This document shows, in pieces, positions 1,762 through 53,571 of a DNA stretch of 53,571 nt. Source of the DNA: a virus. The stretch is taken from the IMG/VR virus record IMGVR_UViG_3300003203_000001, positions 1-53,571 of that record; one strand, 5' to 3'. Numbering within the stretch: position 1 is the first letter of the stretch; the number at the start of each line of letters is the position of its first letter. A program made the position numbers and the translations under genes. The notes below the pieces were generated by a model. The model saw only the letters and a list, made by a program, of their open reading frames with translations, was not told the origin of the DNA and made no database searches.

Positions 1762-2366
1762 TGAAAGACCTCGCGTTGCGCGTCGGCGTACGCGCGATTC
1801 ACCTCGACCATTCGCTCGTGCGACCCGCCGACGTCGGGGTGAGCTGTGCGCGCGGCTTTCTTGTATGCCTCCTCCAGCTGCAGGATGCTGATCGGGCCCG
1901 GACCGAACCCGAGCACGGCGCGCCAGGAACTCGCGCCGGCCTCGGAGGGCAGCGCGGTGAAACCGGTGTACGCTCGCTCGAGCAGCTGCGATGCCCCCGA
2001 ACGCTCGATCGCTCGAAGCGCTCCAATCGCGAGACCGATGGCGCGAATGTTGCCGCGAACCGTGTTCCAGGTGTCGCAGGCCATCACCATCGGGCGGCGA
2101 TCGCGCGCCGACCAATAGACCGCCACGCCACGGTCCGGCGGCTCGCTCAGGCCGCTGCGCGGCAGCCCGTCTCGTCGCGTTGGCACGTTCGAGGTGATGA
2201 CGACGTCGCGGGCGTGCAGGCTGCGGAGCTCTCGGAGAAGCTCGTCGAGCGCTGCCTCGAGCGTCAGCTTGTACGGAGGCTTGCGCGGCGAGGCGGTGCG
2301 CTTCCAACCAGCCGGCCATGCAAGCGGATACCCCGACCTCGGCGCCTCAGCTGCTGTTTCTCTCAC
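1758..2366 (-). CDS. J-domain (DnaJ-like) protein
   Basis: This is a 202-aa protein starting at GTG 2366 (GTGA overlap with the cytosine methyltransferase). The last 50 residues form a J-domain core: a helix (ILQLEEAYKKAARTA), the invariant HPD in HPDVGGS, and a second helix (MVEVNRAYADA). J domains stimulate the ATPase of DnaK. The first 120 residues are not recognised and may be the client-binding part. They include VAVYWSARDRRPMVMACD. The J domain is C-terminal here rather than N-terminal as in DnaJ, as in several phage and DnaJ-class III proteins. Confidence 0.82.
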   Translation of the reverse strand: MRETAAEAPRSGYPLAWPAGWKRTASPRKPPYKLTLEAALDELLRELRSLHARDVVITSNVPTRRDGLPRSGLSEPPDRGVAVYWSARDRRPMVMACDTWNTVRGNIRAIGLAIGALRAIERSGASQLLERAYTGFTALPSEAGASSWRAVLGFGPGPISILQLEEAYKKAARTAHPDVGGSHERMVEVNRAYADAQREVFQ

Positions 2367-3517
2367 GCGGATTCCCTTTCTCGCCTCTGCTCCGGCGCGT
2401 TGCTCGCCCACCACTGCGCGATCGAGCGCGCAACCGCTTCGGCGAGCGGCGGCGGCATTGCTTGGCCGATCAGCGACCAGCGCGCGCGCTTCGTCTTGCC
2501 CGCGAAGTACCAGTCCTCGGGGAATCCCTGCAGGATCGCGCCGGCGCGCTCGGAGAGCTTGATCGCGTTGAAGCTCTGCGGCTCGCCCCGGCGTCCGCTC
2601 CGTCCGAAGGTCGAAACCGCAGCCCGAGTCGTGACGACAGTGCTCGGGCGGCTCCATGGCCACTCGCTGACGCACGCCCCTTGCGCGCCGCGGATGTCAC
2701 CCTTCGTGGTGATCGTGAAACTCGGCTTGTCCGGCCGGTTGATCGGGTGCTTCGGGTTCAACAGCAGCGCGCCGTCCGACGAAGGGTTGCGGGTCAGCGT
2801 GCGCGCTGGGCGTTCCGCGCGACTCGGGCGATGATCACCTCGACCCTCAGCGAGCACGGTTCGAATCCGCTTGCCGAGCGTCCGGACCGGCAAGTGCTGT
2901 AACGCATCGCGCACGGTGACGTAGGGTCGGAGCTCGGTCCCCTCGATCTGCGTCTGGTGCGCGACCGAACCGTGCGTGGACGCCGGCCACCGTAGGCACG
3001 GCGTGCCGAGCGGATGGCCAAACCAAAAGGTCCTCACGCGGTGCTGCGGCACCCCGTACGCCGCGGCGTCGAGGGACGCGTAGTCGATGCAGTAGCTGTC
3101 AGCCAGGGCTCCGATCGTGCGCTGCAGCGCGCCGATGTGCGGACCGTCGTCGGCGCCCGGCACGTTGCCGATCAGCCAGACTCGCGGTCGCCACAGCGCG
3201 AGCAGCCGGGCGGTCGTACCCATCTGGTCACGCGGATCAGAGAGCCCGAGCCGCTTGCCGGCCCTCGACCAGGGCGTGCAGGGCGGATCGGCGACGACCA
3301 GGTCGAGCCGTCCTGGCTCGGCGCCGAGCAGCTCGGTCCACCCAAGCAGATGTCGAACGTCGATCTGCAAGGGCTGGCGTCCGAGGTTGTACTCGTACGA
3401 CTCGCAGGCGTTCGTGTCGATGTCGACCGACCACTCGAAGTCGATCCCAGCGCGCCGGAAGCCCTCCGCCATCCCGCCGCTCGCGCAGAAAAGCTCGACC
3501 GCGCGTAGCGTCACCAT
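2363..3517 (-). CDS. C5-cytosine DNA methyltransferase
   Basis: This is a 384-aa protein with the C5-methyltransferase motifs in order: motif I (ELFCASGGMAEGF, residues 8-20), the catalytic PPC motif IV (ADPPCTPWSRAGK, near 97), motif VIII (GVPQHRVRTFWFG), and the C-terminal motif IX/X block (QGFPEDWYFAGK and GQAMPPPLA). Motif VI, normally ENV, reads GNV here (WLIGNVPGAD), so the glutamate that assists cytosine activation is absent. The start may be ATG 3517 or GTG 3514. No companion restriction enzyme is seen, so it is probably an orphan, anti-restriction type enzyme, if active. Confidence 0.93.
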   Translation of the reverse strand: MVTLRAVELFCASGGMAEGFRRAGIDFEWSVDIDTNACESYEYNLGRQPLQIDVRHLLGWTELLGAEPGRLDLVVADPPCTPWSRAGKRLGLSDPRDQMGTTARLLALWRPRVWLIGNVPGADDGPHIGALQRTIGALADSYCIDYASLDAAAYGVPQHRVRTFWFGHPLGTPCLRWPASTHGSVAHQTQIEGTELRPYVTVRDALQHLPVRTLGKRIRTVLAEGRGDHRPSRAERPARTLTRNPSSDGALLLNPKHPINRPDKPSFTITTKGDIRGAQGACVSEWPWSRPSTVVTTRAAVSTFGRSGRRGEPQSFNAIKLSERAGAILQGFPEDWYFAGKTKRARWSLIGQAMPPPLAEAVARSIAQWWASNAPEQRRERESA

Positions 3518-6255: not shown

Positions 6256-6806
6256 GCGGTTCTCCGTGCCTTGAACGTCTTGCCCACCGCACCAGCGCGC
6301 GCAGCCCAGATGCCGATCAGCACCGCGGCTGCCTCGTCGTGCGTTAGGTCCTCTTCGTCGAGGACGCCGAGCCGCGCGTGAGCGACCCGCAACTCCTCCG
6401 CTCGCACTAGCTCGCGCGGCGCAGCGACGAACCGTCCGCCCAGCACGCGCGCACGCCACGTCGGCGGATACACACGTACCACACGCTTGGGCGACTGCCC
6501 GGCCCCACGCCATGCGACCATCCAGCGCTCGGTTGCTCGCTCGAGTCCGGCCACCGTGTGTCGCTCGCCACCGAAGGGTCGCTCAAGCACGAGTACGAGC
6601 GGTTCGCTGCGCCGCGCGGCGTATTGCAGCGCGAAGCGCACGATGTGTGTGAGCGCCGCATGGTCGTACGTGTCCGCTTCGCCGAACTCGCGCTGGTGCT
6701 CGCCTGCCCGGATCGACCAGCCGCTCATCCGCGCGGTGTCGACCGCCAGCACCACGCAGCGCCAGGGCACGAGCGAGTCGGGCAGTTGGATCCGCGCGCG
6801 CTTCAC
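6252..6806 (-). CDS. RuvC-like Holliday-junction resolvase
   Basis: This is a 184-aa protein with an RNase H-like fold. The first acidic strand is VVLAVDTARMSGWSI (D23), a second acidic site sits in LVLVLERPFGG (E75), and a C-terminal DEAAAVLIGIWAA helix carries the final Asp/Glu pair. This spacing matches RuvC-type junction resolvases, which act on branched DNA during replication or before packaging. It lies downstream of the primase-helicase with four-base overlaps on both sides. Confidence 0.78.
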   Translation of the reverse strand: MKRARIQLPDSLVPWRCVVLAVDTARMSGWSIRAGEHQREFGEADTYDHAALTHIVRFALQYAARRSEPLVLVLERPFGGERHTVAGLERATERWMVAWRGAGQSPKRVVRVYPPTWRARVLGGRFVAAPRELVRAEELRVAHARLGVLDEEDLTHDEAAAVLIGIWAARAGAVGKTFKARRTA

Positions 6807-7294
6807 ACCAGCACCTCCTCAAGGCGGGCGCCGAGGGCGCCGAGCACGCGCTCTACGGTCCATCCGCGCTCGGGCGTGCGATGCCCGAGTCCTCCGATCG
6901 CTTCCGTCTGCGTGAGCCGCCAGGCTGGCTGCTCGCGCTTCTTCGTGCACCAGCTCGCCAGTACGACCGCGTTCGCGCGGTCGTGCTCGGCCGCCAGCAC
7001 CACGGCGAACCACTCGGGTCCCACGAAGGCGAGCGCTGCTTCGGCGTTTGGTGCAGCCGATGCCGCGCGAAAGGCACAGCGCTCGCCCTCGTGGGTCGAG
7101 ACTAGGAGGGTCGCAGGCAGGGGAAGGTGAAGCAGCAGCCGCGCGTCAAAGCCAAGCACCTCGCGCTGCGCAGTCGGCAGCGCGTCCTCTGCCGACCCTA
7201 GTGCGACCGGCTCGGGATCGGGAAGCTGCGTTTCGATCGTCGCCGTCTCGAGCGGCAGCGCGGCTTTAGCCGTCAGGCGAACGCGGGGACTCAT
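6803..7294 (-). CDS. Hypothetical protein
   Basis: This is a 163-aa protein starting at ATG 7294, overlapping the preceding frame by four bases and the resolvase start by four bases. It has a hydrophobic core (LLLHLPLPATLLVSTHEGE) and a second one (FAVVLAAEHDRANAVVLASW). It may be a globular alpha/beta domain. No family or catalytic motif is recognised. Confidence 0.62.
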   Translation of the reverse strand: MSPRVRLTAKAALPLETATIETQLPDPEPVALGSAEDALPTAQREVLGFDARLLLHLPLPATLLVSTHEGERCAFRAASAAPNAEAALAFVGPEWFAVVLAAEHDRANAVVLASWCTKKREQPAWRLTQTEAIGGLGHRTPERGWTVERVLGALGARLEEVLV

Positions 7295-7578
7295 GATTGT
7301 GTCCCCAGTGTCCCCAGTTGGACTAATCGACTGGGGACAGAATTGCCTAGCAATTCTATAGTTGTCCCCAGTGTCCCCAGTGTCCCCAAAATTCTAAAGG
7401 GTCGTATGGGAGCGATTGAACCCGCGTGCGGGACTACCCCTAACGCACCTTTACAACGCGCCCCATAATAGGCTTCGAGTTCTGGGGACACCGGGGACAT
7501 TGGGGACAACGATGAAATCGCTAAGGATTTCTGTCCCCAATATGTCCCCAATGTCCCCAGTTTTGCTGACCGGGTCAT
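7291..7578 (-). CDS. Reading frame built on GGGGACA iterons
   Basis: This frame of 95 codons has a four-base ATGA overlap with the gene before it (7575-7578) and another with the gene after it (7291-7294), exactly like proven neighbours. Its content is unusual: repeated LGT units (LGTLGTYWG, LGTLGTLGT, LGTLGT) are the translation of the CTGGGGACA direct repeats. It may be a genuine product, or a frame kept open only to pass ribosomes on to the next gene while the DNA serves as an iteron array. Confidence 0.4.
   Translation of the reverse strand: MTRSAKLGTLGTYWGQKSLAISSLSPMSPVSPELEAYYGARCKGALGVVPHAGSIAPIRPFRILGTLGTLGTTIELLGNSVPSRLVQLGTLGTQS
7300..7558. repeat. Iteron cluster, candidate replication origin
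   Basis: Twelve copies of the heptamer GGGGACA or its complement TGTCCCC lie in 259 bp: TGTCCCC at 7300, 7309, 7363, 7372, 7381, 7532, 7543 and 7552; GGGGACA at 7333, 7484, 7493 and 7502. Within clusters the spacing is 9 bp, once 11. Opposed clusters flank small palindromes: GAATTGC/GCAATTC (7340-7356) and GAAATC/GATTTC (7514-7531). A third hairpin (CCCGC/GCGGG) is at 7421-7432. The array lies directly downstream of the primase-helicase gene, which fits an origin or replication-control site. Confidence 0.7.
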
Positions 7579-10118
7579 GAAGACCTCTGGTCAGGCTCGG
7601 GTGGTTCGGGTAACAGGACGACGAAGTGTGATTTGCGTCCACCAACTCGGGCGCTGCGATCGAGCCTACCGGCGTCGAGCTGCGTCCATTCGAGTCGTGC
7701 CCACTCTCGTACAACTTCTCGCGGAGCAAGTCCATGCTCGGCGCAGAAGCGTCGGAACTCGGCGGGGATGATCAGCACCGAGTCGCGCTTCTGAAAGCCG
7801 AAGTAGGTCATGCCCGGCTTGCCCGGGCGCGGTACGTCCTCCTCGCCACTCGAGCCCATGTCGAGCACCGGAAACGAGTCGGGACGGCTCAGCACCCAGT
7901 CCTCGATCAGCCGGCGCGCGCGCTGCGCGATGCCCTCCACCGCTTCGCGCATGTCGACCTTCATGAACACGCGCTCGATCGTTTGGCCCTCGGGCGAGCC
8001 GAGGCCGAGGTCGGACACGGTGCGCTCGGTGACCAGCAGCAGCGCGAAGTACGCCGCGATGCGCCCCTGCAGCGGATCCTTCGCCATGGCGCGGAGCCGC
8101 TTCACCTCCTCGGCGAGCATCGTGCGGAATTGCGCCCAGTCGCTCTCGGTGTTGGCGACCAGCGAGTCGATCCAGGCCCGACCGAAGTGGCCAGCGTTGC
8201 GAGTGCAGCGCCGGCGGAGGTCGTCGATGTCCGCCGCCTTCATGCCGCCGAAGCCTGCGACCGGCAGCTGCACGACCCGAACCTGCGCGCCGGTGGCAGT
8301 GCTCTCGTCGGCGAGCTCGCGCTCGCCCGTGCTGAGCACGACGGTGCGCCAGTTCTGCGTCTCGCGCATCGTCAGATCGCGCTGCCCGCGCGTGCGCCCG
8401 GCGCCGTTGATCAGCGCGTACACGAGGCGTTCGGTCTGCAGCGGATCGGAGCCGCCGACCTCGTCGTAGCACTGTGGAAGGTCACATAGTGTCACCGCGC
8501 GCATCTCGGCACCGACCGGCGTCACGTTCCAACTCGCGACCCAGTGCGGGTTGTCCGGATCGCCGAAGACGCTCGCAGCGATCTTGAGCATCGAGGTCTT
8601 GCCGCGCGACGACTCGCCCGGAAGGTGGATCGCGAAGTTGGGCGCGCCCAGCGGCTGCAGCATCGGCGCGGCAAGCGCGCCGCAGATCACCGCAGCGCAG
8701 ATCGGGTCGGCGGCGAAGGCCTCTTTCAGAGCCGCGAGATGCGCGTCGTAGCTGCCGCGCGGCTCAAGGGCCTCGAAAATTTTTCTGCGATCGCCGCGTT
8801 TATCGAGGGCAATCGGCAGCTCCTTCTCGTCAGCACCACGCGCCTCGTTCAGCACGAACGCCGTTCGACCATCGACGAAATGCCAACCGGCCCGGTCGAC
8901 GCTCGCGACACGCGGGATCACCTTGCTGTTCACGGCGTCCAGCGCTTCGAACCAATCAACGAGCTTTGCCGCGCTGTTCGACGTAACCGGAGCCCCGAAG
9001 GGCGCGAGCTCGCGGATCATGGTCACGCGGTCGTGGATCGCCTGGCGCGTGACGCACTGCTCGACCCAGTCATGCCCGTTGTGAAAGCACAGCTCCACGC
9101 GCCCCTCGCGCGTATACAGGTCGTTCAGGTACCGCTGCAGCAGGATCGGGCTCGGCGCGACAGGTTCGGGGCCGTGCTTCGCGCCTGCGTTCATCCGCCA
9201 AAGCGCGCCGTTCTTGCGGACTTCGTAGGCATCGGAGATGCGCAGATCGTTCGCGACCGGCGCGTCGTGCAGGAACTTGATGGTCTTGGCCCGCAGGAGC
9301 GGGTTGCGCAGGTCGGCAGGCTCGATCGGCGTCGCGCTGTCGAGCAACTTGCGCGTGCCCTCCTCGCCCCATGCCGCGAAGAAATCGTCGATGCCTTTCT
9401 GCGCAGCCGAGGGCGGAGCGCAAAAGCGCACGCTGAGCGCGCCGGCGGCGAGCAGCACCCCACAGAGGCGCGCGGCCGCCATCATCACGCGCTCGTTCTC
9501 CCTTGAATCGGCGTCGAAGCAGATCACATGGTGACGACCTGCGACGGTGCAGTGCTCCAAGATGAGCGGGTGCAGTCGCTCCTCGTTTGTCTGTTGCCGG
9601 TGCGCGACGTCGCCGAAGTTCCAAACGCCGGTCAGGCCGACGCAGCAGAGCCCCATCTGGTCGAAGACGAGCGCCTTTTTTTCGCCCTCGGTCCAATAGA
9701 CGATAAGGTCCGTGAGCTTGTACCAACCACCGGCGCGCGCGCGCGGCGTGAAATAGACCAGCACGCCAACCTGATCCGATTGGTCGTACTTGACGGGCCT
9801 GCCGTTGCGCACCTGCGGCTTGGTCGGCCGCACGCGATAGGCATAAGGCGTTGCCTCGCCCGGCAAGTAGAACGGAAACACCAGGGCGGCAAGGCAGAAC
9901 TCGGGCCATCGCTTGCGGTGGATTAGCGCTGCGATCGCGAGTCGGTTTGACTCGGTGTACAGATCGGCGAGCCGGATCGTCTCGTCGTTCAGTCCGCTTG
10001 CGCGCAGCTGTTCGAGGTGGCCCTCGTTCACCTCGCGCTTCTGCGGCAGATTCACCACTCGTGGGCGCCGCCGCCCACCACTGTTCGAACCGCCGCCCTG
10101 GTGTTGTTCTTCCGTCAC
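7575..10118 (-). CDS. Primase-helicase (TOPRIM DUF3854 plus DUF927)
   Basis: This is an 847-aa replication protein. It starts at GTG 10118 behind a strong GGGAGG site. Residues about 50-270 hold a TOPRIM-like DUF3854 region (YWTEGEKKALVFDQMG and the acidic pair in VICFDADSREN). Residues about 470-660 form a DUF927 superfamily-3-like ATPase with Walker A GESSRGKTSMLK and an acidic Walker B-like site in LPQCYDEVGGSD. The pattern resembles the P4 alpha class of primase-helicases. It likely recognises the adjacent iteron array and starts replication. Confidence 0.9.
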   Translation of the reverse strand: MTEEQHQGGGSNSGGRRRPRVVNLPQKREVNEGHLEQLRASGLNDETIRLADLYTESNRLAIAALIHRKRWPEFCLAALVFPFYLPGEATPYAYRVRPTKPQVRNGRPVKYDQSDQVGVLVYFTPRARAGGWYKLTDLIVYWTEGEKKALVFDQMGLCCVGLTGVWNFGDVAHRQQTNEERLHPLILEHCTVAGRHHVICFDADSRENERVMMAAARLCGVLLAAGALSVRFCAPPSAAQKGIDDFFAAWGEEGTRKLLDSATPIEPADLRNPLLRAKTIKFLHDAPVANDLRISDAYEVRKNGALWRMNAGAKHGPEPVAPSPILLQRYLNDLYTREGRVELCFHNGHDWVEQCVTRQAIHDRVTMIRELAPFGAPVTSNSAAKLVDWFEALDAVNSKVIPRVASVDRAGWHFVDGRTAFVLNEARGADEKELPIALDKRGDRRKIFEALEPRGSYDAHLAALKEAFAADPICAAVICGALAAPMLQPLGAPNFAIHLPGESSRGKTSMLKIAASVFGDPDNPHWVASWNVTPVGAEMRAVTLCDLPQCYDEVGGSDPLQTERLVYALINGAGRTRGQRDLTMRETQNWRTVVLSTGERELADESTATGAQVRVVQLPVAGFGGMKAADIDDLRRRCTRNAGHFGRAWIDSLVANTESDWAQFRTMLAEEVKRLRAMAKDPLQGRIAAYFALLLVTERTVSDLGLGSPEGQTIERVFMKVDMREAVEGIAQRARRLIEDWVLSRPDSFPVLDMGSSGEEDVPRPGKPGMTYFGFQKRDSVLIIPAEFRRFCAEHGLAPREVVREWARLEWTQLDAGRLDRSARVGGRKSHFVVLLPEPPEPDQRSS

Positions 10119-10687: not shown

Positions 10688-10698
10688 ATCGAAACGCA

Positions 10699-11022
10699 TC
10701 AGGCAGTGGCCGCCGCCTCTATGTCGTCGTCGCGCGTTGTCAGCGCCGGCGTTGAAACCTGGGTTCGGCTGCGAGCACGCGCGGTCTTGCGCTTGGGTTT
10801 GAGACGCAGCGGCACGTCGGCCGAACAGTCGAACAGGACGCAGAGCTGGCGGAAGACGCCGAGGTGCGGCTGGCAATCGTCACGCTCCCACCGGCCGATA
10901 CCTCCGACCTCACGCGCGATGTTGCGACCGCCGCCGGAAACTGCGCGCAGCCGCCTGGCCAACTCAGCCTGACTCCATCCGCGGGCAAGGCGCTGGGCTC
11001 GGACCCATTTGCCGATTTTCAT
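10699..11022 (-). CDS. Cro-like XRE-family regulator
   Basis: This is a 107-aa protein that opens the leftward unit. Residues 1-60 form an XRE helix-turn-helix: KIGKWVRAQRLARGWSQAEL then ARRLRAV and IGRWERDDCQPHLG. The C-terminus is basic (LKPKRKTARARSRTQ) and likely unstructured. It faces the other XRE gene across a 109-bp gap that contains the palindromic operator-like element. The arrangement matches a phage lysis/lysogeny switch, with this protein in the Cro position. Confidence 0.85.
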   Translation of the reverse strand: MKIGKWVRAQRLARGWSQAELARRLRAVSGGGRNIAREVGGIGRWERDDCQPHLGVFRQLCVLFDCSADVPLRLKPKRKTARARSRTQVSTPALTTRDDDIEAAATA

Positions 11023-18699: not shown

Positions 18700-18870
18700 A
18701 TGCAAGCACAAAAGCCGCGTCGCGACCTACTGCTCGAAGTGCCGGCCAACGACAACAACGGTGCGCAGTCCCGGTCGCAGCTCGACGCTGAAACCCGCCG
18801 CCGATTCGCCAGGGCGCTGGCGGAGCTGCTGGCCGAACGTATTCTCCGGGAGCATGGCCAGACCCAGTAG
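18700..18870 (+). CDS. Small companion protein of the serine recombinase
   Basis: This 56-aa frame has a strong ribosome site (GAGGGAGGCG) and ATG 18700. The sequence is KPRRDLLLEVPANDNNG followed by an amphipathic helix (RRRFARALAELLAERILRE). It overlaps the integrase start by 17 bases in another frame. Short proteins with a LAELLAxRI-type helix next to phage recombinases are common, and a role as an integrase partner is plausible but not shown by sequence. Confidence 0.65.
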   Translation: MQAQKPRRDLLLEVPANDNNGAQSRSQLDAETRRRFARALAELLAERILREHGQTQ

Positions 18871-20530
18871 TCCAGCTGGCACGCGCACGGCGCTGTACCT
18901 CCGACGTTCGACCGAGGACCAAGAAGAGAGCCTCGAGACGCAACGGCGGAGCGCGATGGAGTACTGCGCGGCGCGCGGCTGGCTGATCGTGGATGAGTTC
19001 GTCGACGACGCCAAGAGCCGCGCCGAGTTCAAGAAGCGGCCTGGGCTGATCCGCATGCTCAACCGCGCCCGCGACCGTCAGTTCGAGCTGGTGGTCCTTC
19101 GCGACGAGTCGCGCCTTGGCGGTGACACGTACCGTACGGGCCTGGTGATCCAGGATCTAACGGACGCTGGCGTTGGCATCGTCCACTACATCACCGACGA
19201 GCTGGTGAGCATCGACACGGCTGTCGATAAGTTTCTGGTCGCGGCGCGAAACTTCGCCAGCGAGCTTGAGCGCGAAAAAATCAGCTCGCGCACGTACGAG
19301 CACCTCATGCAGAAAGCCAAAGCAGGCAAACCCGCAGGCGGCATCAGCTACGGCTATGCGATTGTCGACAAGCGCTACGTCGTGAAGGAGCCCGAGGCGG
19401 CGATCGTGCGACGCATCTTCAGCGAATATGCTGCCGGAAGCGGGCAGCGCTCGATCGCTCATCGGCTGAACGAGGAAGGCGTGCCGTCGCCTCGCGCAGG
19501 CAGCCGTGGGACAGGTTCATGGGCGCCGAGCGCGATTCGCGCCATGCTAACGAACCCGCGGTACGTCGGCGAGGGTCGGTATAACCAGACCCGCAAAGCG
19601 TACAAGGGTGGCACGAAGGTGCGTGAGCGACGGGTCCTCGCGGAACACTTCACGTACGAGTGCCCCGCCATTGTCGACCGCGCGACTTGGGACACGGTAT
19701 CCCAACGCTTCGAAGGGAACGCCTCCTTCGGTTCGCGGTCAGACGTCGCCGGCGCGAAGCCGCGCTACCTGCTGACCGGCATCTCGCGCTGCGGGCAGTG
19801 TGGCGGGCCGATCACCGTTGGCAACCGCAAGTATGGGAGGGTCAACACGCGCGTCTACATGTGCAGCTGGCACAAAAGCCGCGGCGCGGCGGTCTGCAAC
19901 AACACGGTCGCCGAGCGCGTCGAGGTCGTCAATGAGAGGGTGATCGGCGCGCTCCGCAGGGAGATCACCCCCGAGGTCGTTGCGACGGTGATGCGGGAGT
20001 TGCGCGTGATCCTCGACGAGAAGCTCGCCGCCGTTCCCGCTGAGACCGATCGGCTCCGCCTCGAGGCAGAGAAGCTCAGGAAGGAGATGTCCCGCCTCAC
20101 GAACGCAATCGCCACGTCCGACGATCCGCCCGAGGCGCTGGTCGAAGCCTTGAATGACCGCGGCAAGCGGCTACGCAAGGCCGAACTCGAACTGGCCGCC
20201 GCCGCGGCACCAGTGGGACACGTCGACCGTGCGTTCAAGGACCTCGAGATACGCGTCCGACGCGGGCTCCGACAGCTTCAGGCGGAGTTCGATGGGAACG
20301 TGGAGGGCGCCCGGGATACCCTTGTGGCGCTCACCCATGGTGAACGCCTGCGGTTCGAAGCGGAAGATGGGCGGTTCAAGGTGTACGGGTCGGTCACCGT
20401 GTCGGGCCTCGTGCGACCCGACCCGGTTTCCGACCGTGTTGCGTCCCCAGCGGGATTTGCCACGGTAGGAAACGCGTTCGCGAGCCTAGCCGCGCCCCGC
20501 CTGCCGTTCGTGGCTGCCGCTGCGGCTTAG
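18854..20530 (+). CDS. int: Large serine integrase (site-specific recombinase)
   Basis: This is a 558-aa large serine recombinase. The nucleophile is in LYLRRSTEDQEESLETQ (Ser near residue 18). Resolvase-core motifs continue (FELVVLRDESRLGGDTYRTG, ASELEREKISSRTYE). The recombinase domain follows (GISYGYAIVDKRYVVKEPEA, VRRIFSEYAAG), then a zinc ribbon (CGQCGGPI with CSWHKSRGAAVCNN) and a coiled-coil (AETDRLRLEAEKLRKEMSRL). All parts needed for integration are present. The attP site is expected close by, but was not identified. It makes the phage temperate. Confidence 0.95.
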   Translation: MARPSSPAGTRTALYLRRSTEDQEESLETQRRSAMEYCAARGWLIVDEFVDDAKSRAEFKKRPGLIRMLNRARDRQFELVVLRDESRLGGDTYRTGLVIQDLTDAGVGIVHYITDELVSIDTAVDKFLVAARNFASELEREKISSRTYEHLMQKAKAGKPAGGISYGYAIVDKRYVVKEPEAAIVRRIFSEYAAGSGQRSIAHRLNEEGVPSPRAGSRGTGSWAPSAIRAMLTNPRYVGEGRYNQTRKAYKGGTKVRERRVLAEHFTYECPAIVDRATWDTVSQRFEGNASFGSRSDVAGAKPRYLLTGISRCGQCGGPITVGNRKYGRVNTRVYMCSWHKSRGAAVCNNTVAERVEVVNERVIGALRREITPEVVATVMRELRVILDEKLAAVPAETDRLRLEAEKLRKEMSRLTNAIATSDDPPEALVEALNDRGKRLRKAELELAAAAAPVGHVDRAFKDLEIRVRRGLRQLQAEFDGNVEGARDTLVALTHGERLRFEAEDGRFKVYGSVTVSGLVRPDPVSDRVASPAGFATVGNAFASLAAPRLPFVAAAAA

Positions 20531-52414: not shown

Positions 52415-53571
52415 TCAGCCTCGCTTCGCCTTCTCGCCGGTCAGCTTCTGCCAGCGCTCGACGATCACGTCGCAGTACGCCGGCGAGAGCTCGATTGCGA
52501 CGCAGATGCGGCCGAGGTGCTCGCAAGCCATCATCGTCGTCCCGCTGCCGCTGAACGGATCGTAAACCACGTCGCCCTGCTGGCCGTGGTTGCGGATTGG
52601 TCGCGCCATGCACTCGAGCGGCTTCTGGGTCGAGTGCTCAGTCTCCTGCTGCCCGTCCTTGCGCGCGATGTCCCAGACGGTCGACTGCTTGCGATCGCCT
52701 CCCCATTTGGCCGACTTGCCCTGGCGCACGGCGTACCAGCACGTCTCGTGTTGCCAGTGGTAGTGCCCCCGTCCCACCACGATCGATGGTTTGCGCCACA
52801 TAATGTGCGAACGTCGCTCGAAGCCGGCAGAGTCAATTTCGCGCGCGACCACGTCGCTGACCAACGCGTCACACCAGATGTAAGACACGTCTCCCGGAAA
52901 CAACTTATAGGCTTCAAGCCAGCTGGCGCGTTTGTCGTCGTTCTCGACCTTGCCGACGCGCTTGGTCCTATTGAGTCCTGCCTCCCGGCGCCACGCCGCA
53001 TCGTAGTCGACACCGTACGGCGGATCGGTGTCCATGAGTACGGGCATGAGCTTCGCGCGCGCAAGACTCACCACCCTTTCGTCCGTGCAATCACCGCAGA
53101 CCAAGCGATGTTTACCGAGCTGCCACAGATCGCCCGGCTTCGTGACCGGGTTTTTCGGTGGTTCGGGCACCTCGTCGTCGGGCAGCTCCTGCGAGTCGGC
53201 GATCGCGCGCTCGAGCTCGCGCATGTCCTTCTCGTTCCACCCCGCCAACAGCTGATCGCTGATGTCGTAGCTCGCCAGAATTGCGTGCAGCGCAGGGTCG
53301 TCCCACTCAGCGAGCTCGCCGAGTCGGTTGTCCGCCAGCGCGAGGAGGTGCGCCTCGCGCTCGCTGCAGTCGATGAAGCGCACCGGGACCTTGCTGAGCT
53401 TCAGCAGCTGCGCTGCTTTCCAGCGCGTGTGGCCGGCGATAATCTCGCGCGTCGCCTTGCGCGCGACGATCGGCGCCGCGAAGCCGAAGCGACGGATCGA
53501 CTCGGCGACTCGCGCGACCGGCTCGCCGTCGTTCTTGCGCGGGTTCTTCGGCCATGGTCTCAGGCTCGCCG
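52415..53571 (-). CDS. ParB-domain DNA methyltransferase, main part (beta class)
   Basis: This is the rest of the 418-aa protein begun at 178. From the contig end it reads VARVAESIRRFGFAAPIVAR and REIIAGHTRWKAAQLLKLSK, a ParB/Srx-type domain. After a linker (PKNPVTKPGDLWQLGKHRLV) the methyltransferase begins: catalytic DPPY in VLMDTDPPYGVDYDAAWRRE, and AdoMet-binding FSGSGTTMMACEHLGRICVA near the C-terminus. Motif IV before motif I is the beta class (N6-adenine or N4-cytosine). Its own GTG at 53383 is only an internal codon. Confidence 0.93.
   Translation of the reverse strand, partial: ASLRPWPKNPRKNDGEPVARVAESIRRFGFAAPIVARKATREIIAGHTRWKAAQLLKLSKVPVRFIDCSEREAHLLALADNRLGELAEWDDPALHAILASYDISDQLLAGWNEKDMRELERAIADSQELPDDEVPEPPKNPVTKPGDLWQLGKHRLVCGDCTDERVVSLARAKLMPVLMDTDPPYGVDYDAAWRREAGLNRTKRVGKVENDDKRASWLEAYKLFPGDVSYIWCDALVSDVVAREIDSAGFERRSHIMWRKPSIVVGRGHYHWQHETCWYAVRQGKSAKWGGDRKQSTVWDIARKDGQQETEHSTQKPLECMARPIRNHGQQGDVVYDPFSGSGTTMMACEHLGRICVAIELSPAYCDVIVERWQKLTGEKAKRG
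53494..53571. repeat. Terminal direct repeat, copy 2
   Basis: This copy is identical to bases 1-78. The frame of the methyltransferase continues from here to position 79 and on to the ATG at 178, so this end joins the start of the contig. Confidence 0.95.

Follow-up and report, generated by a model that had tools for sequence, protein, structure and literature searches.

A putative phage replication origin within a stop-free reading frame coupled to both neighboring genes

The window, i.e. the whole stretch of 53,571 nucleotides analyzed here (IMG/VR record IMGVR_UViG_3300003203_000001), is a complete temperate myophage genome, in which portal, terminase, sheath, baseplate and tape measure genes are all present. 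An exact 78-bp direct terminal repeat (1-78 and 53494-53571) points to a circular contig or a complete genome. A large serine recombinase/integrase is encoded at 18761-20530, 11 kb from the repeat array that is the subject of this work, and a gene for a C5 cytosine DNA methylase (2363-3517, minus strand) lies in the same genome region as the array.

The array is located between two genes of a minus-strand operon (Table 1). The 847-aa product of the upstream gene matched DUF927 (E-value 6e-41) and DUF3854 (4e-18) in Pfam and primase/helicase in PHROG (1e-77), and its C-terminus gave a weak match, below the cut-off, to HTH_56 (Cch HTH; 7e-4). In Foldseek searches against PDB, an AlphaFold model of this protein built from 15 relatives (pLDDT 84) ranked the SaPIBov1 Rep structure 8tch first (E-value 2e-25), followed by SCCmec Cch (5dgk) and then DnaG primase cores; the profile search was in agreement (8tch, 2e-42; 5dgk, 8e-31). 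Residues 785-835 of the model are arranged as helix-helix-strand-strand. For the downstream gene, no family was found in Pfam or PHROG searches.

Table 1. Features of the putative origin region and its neighboring genes
Feature	Coordinates	Strand	Evidence
Primase-helicase/initiator gene: DUF3854 TOPRIM-like, DUF927 helicase, putative winged-helix-like domain at the C-terminus	7575..10118	-	Pfam, PHROG, structure
Stop-free frame across the putative origin, joined to both neighbors by ATGA overlaps; likely for the passage of ribosomes and not a conserved protein	7291..7578	-	ORF, relatives, codon tests
Putative replication origin: 12 GGGGACA iterons, inverted clusters	7300..7558	.	motif count, inverted repeat, iterons in orthologous slot of relatives
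Outer iteron triplet with 11- and 9-bp steps	7532..7558	-	motif count
AT-rich hairpin spacer with GAAATC...GATTTC, 39% GC; near-identical in relative L291	7509..7531	.	
Inner iteron triplet, opposite orientation	7484..7508	+	motif count
Central iteron-free segment, 52% GC vs genome 66%; candidate melting/priming region	7388..7483	.	position conserved in relatives
Inner iteron triplet, 9-bp register	7363..7387	-	motif count
AT-rich hairpin spacer GAATTGC-CTA-GCAATTC, 35% GC, between opposed iterons	7340..7362	.	sequence, GC
Single inverted iteron	7333..7339	+	motif count
Outer iterons, 2 copies (7300-7306, 7309-7315)	7300..7315	-	motif count
Next operon gene, homologous in relatives; start codon overlaps origin-frame stop	6803..7294	-	family searches, relatives

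In total, the GGGGACA heptamer occurs 14 times in the window, compared with a mean of 4.7 and a maximum of 10 in dinucleotide shuffles of the genome, and 12 of these copies fall within the 259-bp array. Eight copies on the minus strand and four on the plus strand form inverted clusters, whose order on the transcribed minus strand is >>> hairpin <<< centre >>> hairpin < >>. The initial annotation had described twelve heptamers with 9-bp spacing in 259 bp; the count and the length are correct, whereas the uniform spacing is not, since the start-to-start step equals 9 in 6 of the 11 intervals and the others are 24, 30, 103, 30 and 11. The array as a whole forms a large inverted repeat whose 66-nt arms are 82% complementary, and its predicted RNA folding energy is -143 kcal/mol (z -9.7). 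Its GC content is 0.537 vs 0.656 for the genome, ranking 10 of 5332 among the lowest-GC 260-bp segments. An Rfam search of the array returned only below-threshold microRNA matches owed to the inverted repeat, and the GC skew along the genome has no clear switch at the array, which speaks neither for nor against an origin.

The frame that runs through the array is open for 95 codons and shares ATGA overlaps with the genes on both sides. The repeat TGGGGACAT is free of stop codons in every one of the six frames, and GGGGACA repeats therefore favor an open frame; nevertheless, with the repeats held fixed, the openness of this frame is expected by chance in only 2-6% of cases. The codon score of the frame is -0.28, vs 0.41 ± 0.19 for segments of the genome's genes. 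The statement that the repeats encode LGT units in frame holds for seven units; the inverted copies are read as SP or VP, and the 11-bp step sets one copy out of phase (read as YWGQ). The model of the encoded peptide has a pLDDT of 42 throughout, and no family match was found for it in Pfam or PHROG.

Relatives of the window were collected by a terminase scan and then by a helicase-alignment scan, and seven of them contain the full region, with helicases 48-58% identical to that of the window. Neither the window helicase nor the next gene gave a match as the query of a single-protein scan, megablast against phages detected no near relative, and a scan of genome contigs yielded distant primase fragments only. 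The slot of the array is occupied in the relatives by other iterons: 12 copies of GGCGACA in L291 (changed in all 12), 10 of GAGACCA in L287, 10 of GTAGCCA in L288, 7 of GGGACCA in L292, AGTCCAA in L294, a GGGGCC-type repeat in L301, and only a degenerate iteron array in L289; the GGGGACA array pattern itself had no match in the close relatives checked by pattern. The layout is largely retained: counted from the helicase stop, the inner clusters are located at +69..+87 and +190..+208 in the window and at +70..+88 and +193..+211 in L291, with similar positions in the other relatives. Such a concerted change of all copies within a preserved layout is expected for an array bound by an initiator, and the C-terminal domain of the helicase would have changed along with the iteron.

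In all eight phages (the window and the seven relatives), an open frame of 94-134 codons starts in overlap with the helicase stop and spans the origin. The open frame linked to both neighbors, as first described for the window, is thus borne out more strongly than expected, throughout the group. The start codon at the helicase stop is embedded in ATGA six times, in GTGA once and in TGATG once, and the stop of the frame either overlaps the next gene's start or falls inside that gene by a few codons. The two remaining frames close sooner in each of the eight; in L294, the other two forward frames have 4 and 11 stops. The next gene is homologous in all eight phages, with GC3 near 0.8 in the flanking genes; for L291 this homology comes from reading the sequence, and the automatic choice missed the ATGA start. 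By dinucleotide shuffling, the chance of openness is 0.2-15% per phage (0.4-5% with iterons fixed), and the product over eight phages is 7e-15 (1.5e-15 with iterons fixed), a value that overstates independence because the phages are kin. Despite this kinship, the iterons and most of the origin sequence have been replaced between them. The comparison shows that selection has kept stop codons out of the coupled frame.

The encoded peptides do not share this conservation. None of the eight origin frames shows a GC pattern by codon position, and the peptides have almost no similarity, with weak matches between L287 and L289 (32% over 95 aa, E-value 6e-6) and between L290 and the window (39% over 31 aa). 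One pair, L292 and L294, has helicases identical at 718 of 793 residues (90%), with changes by codon position of 52/27/250. In each of these two phages the origin frame stays open over more than 130 codons, with start and stop shared by the pair; aligned, the two frames have 77% DNA identity, only 31% of columns in phase, and changes of 6/8/10. This comparison appears decisive against a protein. The initial annotation had expected the relatives to separate an origin alone from a protein, and the outcome is a third one: the frame is kept open, and the protein is not conserved. The translated LGT-repeat protein proposed there finds no support, given the lack of peptide conservation and of a codon pattern, and the drift of phase between close relatives.

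The same design, with a primase of another family, recurs in the cultured Gordonia phages Jojo24, Reyja, Tarzan, Hibiscus, TinyDot and Hamood. CCTGGAA iterons lie inside Jojo24 gp54 and Reyja gp57, CGTGGAC iterons inside Hibiscus gp55 and Tarzan gp55, and CCGTGGACA inside TinyDot gp58; the CCAGCAA iterons of Hamood and Pimento occupy an unannotated 268-bp gap after the primase. In the two latter genomes (PQ244015.1 and PQ244022.1, our loci L312 and L313), seven copies of CCAGCAAAC and a 91-codon coupled frame were observed at 2808-3080. The Gordonia origin frames overlap the primase gene by ATGA and the next gene by ATGA or GTGA. Their substitutions are flat by codon position (9/7/9 and 7/8/9), and their pN/pS ratios are 0.63 and 0.66, vs 0.07 and 0.14 for the primases; origin-frame ratios of 0.5-0.66 are below 1, a level that constraint on the iterons as DNA can cause.

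When viral contigs were scanned for sets of three closely spaced GGGGACA copies, at least 80 loci were found. Among the 80 loci listed, 19, some of them homologous to one another, have a primase/helicase within 500 bp, always with the array at the 3' end of the gene, vs none of the 80 loci listed for the reversed heptamer ACAGGGG. The neighboring genes belong to the DUF927, Prim-Pol + DUF3987, Prim-Pol + AAA_25 and VapE-like families. In named phages, the arrays behind the primase consist of CCTGGAA, TGGGAAC, GGGGAAC, GTCAACA, GTATCCA, GGTAACC, AGGTGAA or TGTCACA; with other iterons in these phages and in the true relatives, GGGGACA was rejected as a universal iteron and is one of many iteron sequences. 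Numerous other phages whose origins are of this kind, among them L058, L067, THSA-485A, RHph_Y3_1 and FP_Epona, have no open frame over the origin region, and in the distant clade L295-L298 the frame is not consistently open. An open frame is therefore not required for origin function, and its openness is a trait of some lineages.

Several other arrangements were observed in the course of these scans. In L004 (3054-4412), the 3' end of the helicase's own frame contains a GGGGACA array, and L041 and L077 look similar. Some GGGGACA arrays, at L034, L047, L073 and similar loci, have every copy on one strand, spacing in multiples of three and a location within long open frames; they look like coding repeats and not origins. 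In L018, a tyrosine integrase that has an arm-binding domain is found near the GGGGACA array (10690-10842), which possibly represents attP arms and not an origin. The TACGCG motif, often as ATACGCGAG, is central in the origins of L289, L292, L294, L048 and L086 and is also present in the origin centers of the Gordonia phage loci L132, L133, L308 and L309; these origins belong to different primase-helicase families, and the motif could be a host-factor or priming site.

The C-terminal domain of SaPI Rep recognizes a short-iteron origin directly downstream of its gene (PMC7581432), and PICI origins, which follow the initiator gene immediately on its 3' side, comprise an AT-rich region between two iteron sets (PMC6092414). 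The module in the window resembles those of SaPIBov1 Rep and SCCmec Cch in its DUF927 initiator helicase of the same type and in the array directly 3' of the gene with two iteron sets around a lower-GC segment, the AT-richness here being relative only. The differences are that the helicase is fused to a TOPRIM primase domain, that the origin lies within an open frame coupled to both neighbors, and that the window is a complete myophage genome with structural genes, whereas PICI satellites have no full phage structural gene set. In phage lambda, the origin lies inside gene O (PMC6022878) and is activated by transcription across it (PMC3985674). The window shares with lambda iterons in presumably translated DNA that is crossed by transcription; however, the lambda frame is the conserved initiator itself, whereas the array in the window follows the helicase stop in a separate frame with no conserved peptide, and iterons in the initiator's own frame were seen in L004. 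The pRN1 plasmid and the BIP-1 phage likewise have an origin downstream of the replication gene with a large stem-loop, but theirs has no iterons (PMC4234260). The Gordonia phages share the iteron array 3' of the primase gene within a doubly coupled frame and differ in their Prim-Pol primase and in the iterons (CCTGGAA, CGTGGAC or CCAGCAA). The description of the array as origin-like is upheld by its position adjacent to the initiator gene, by iterons in the same slot of relatives and in unrelated phages, and by their concerted replacement. On the grounds of gene type, position, layout and concerted iteron change, the array is almost certainly a replication origin of the SaPI/PICI type, placed immediately behind the DUF927 primase-helicase gene.

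We consider it probable that this segment serves as a replication origin whose stop-free coupled frame is kept for the passage of ribosomes, the peptide being a by-product. The primase-helicase from the upstream gene would bind the GGGGACA iterons via its putative C-terminal winged-helix domain and assemble on the two inverted clusters; the central or AT-rich segments would then melt and replication would start, as with SaPI Rep. The origin would sit mid-way in a transcribed operon, where ribosomes finishing the helicase may re-start at the overlapping start codon, traverse the origin transcript, thereby unfolding the very stable hairpin and protecting the mRNA, and re-start again at the next gene. 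Operon coupling and continuity would most likely be the reason for the open frame, since an untranslated 300-nt stretch with a very stable hairpin inside an operon would be prone to termination and would break the link to the next gene; averting this at little cost is the likeliest function of the stop-free frame. A regulatory purpose, by which passing ribosomes would keep the inverted iterons single-stranded in RNA and adjust the transcription crossing the origin, which would let initiation follow the expression of the helicase operon, seems to us rather doubtful. Translatability of the operon is a simpler reason than the coupling of replication to ribosomes, with which the observations are compatible, and a role of the frame in timing replication is possible.

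Alternatively, the frame could be a genuine gene for a small, rapidly evolving protein, in which the origin iterons lie by coincidence, in the manner of lambda gene O with ori-lambda. The open and coupled frame in all eight phages, an SD-like AGAGG ahead of its start, the two weak peptide similarities and the annotation of the Gordonia counterparts as hypothetical proteins are in line with this. Amino-acid conservation and a codon-position signal among relatives, which mark protein-coding genes, are nevertheless absent from the origin frame; substitutions are flat by codon position, phase is largely lost between L292 and L294 although their helicases are 90% identical, and the peptide, with its low model confidence and no family match, is replaced along with the iteron. 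We regard a protein gene as unlikely. Openness by chance, aided by repeats without stops, has a likelihood of 2-6% for the window taken alone, but it is quite improbable for eight of eight phages with different iterons, some with stop triplets in other phases, given a combined chance of about 1e-15, a stop falling at the start of the next gene each time, and recurrence in five Gordonia phages.

Two further readings concern the array itself. The arms of an attP can consist of short repeats, in either orientation, on the two sides of a core, and the center here is tRNA-like in having a GGTTCAATC-like stretch on the minus strand. However, no tRNA was found, the sole integrase among the genes searched is the distant large serine recombinase, and the relatives keep the array beside the helicase and not beside an integrase; attP of a tyrosine integrase was rejected as highly improbable. 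To our knowledge, large serine recombinases do not use arm sites. A mobile REP/MITE-like repeat inserted behind the helicase would fit the large inverted repeat, but the arrays in the orthologous slot differ in sequence and have a largely similar layout, and all 19 helicase-adjacent arrays among the matches listed lie at the 3' end of the gene; with its context conserved in this way, a REP-like element was rejected and is hardly credible.

An origin of this type is already known, and lambda provides a case of an origin within a gene (PMC6022878); in the open-access literature searched, no description was found of a stop-free origin frame that is coupled on both sides and shows no protein conservation. 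The element in the window is best described as a putative "ribosome-transparent origin", in which the DNA would be selected as an origin and the frame only for lacking stops. One DNA element would be selected at two levels, as an origin and for stop-free ribosome passage, without being a protein gene. Phase drift together with flat codon positions provides a simple test for false small genes in phage annotation, and in Gordonia phages several annotated hypothetical proteins are apparently origins. The co-evolution of initiator and iterons becomes readable, as the iteron is replaced in every copy and the layout is kept, and the effect of translation across the origin on replication is now directly testable in cultured phages.
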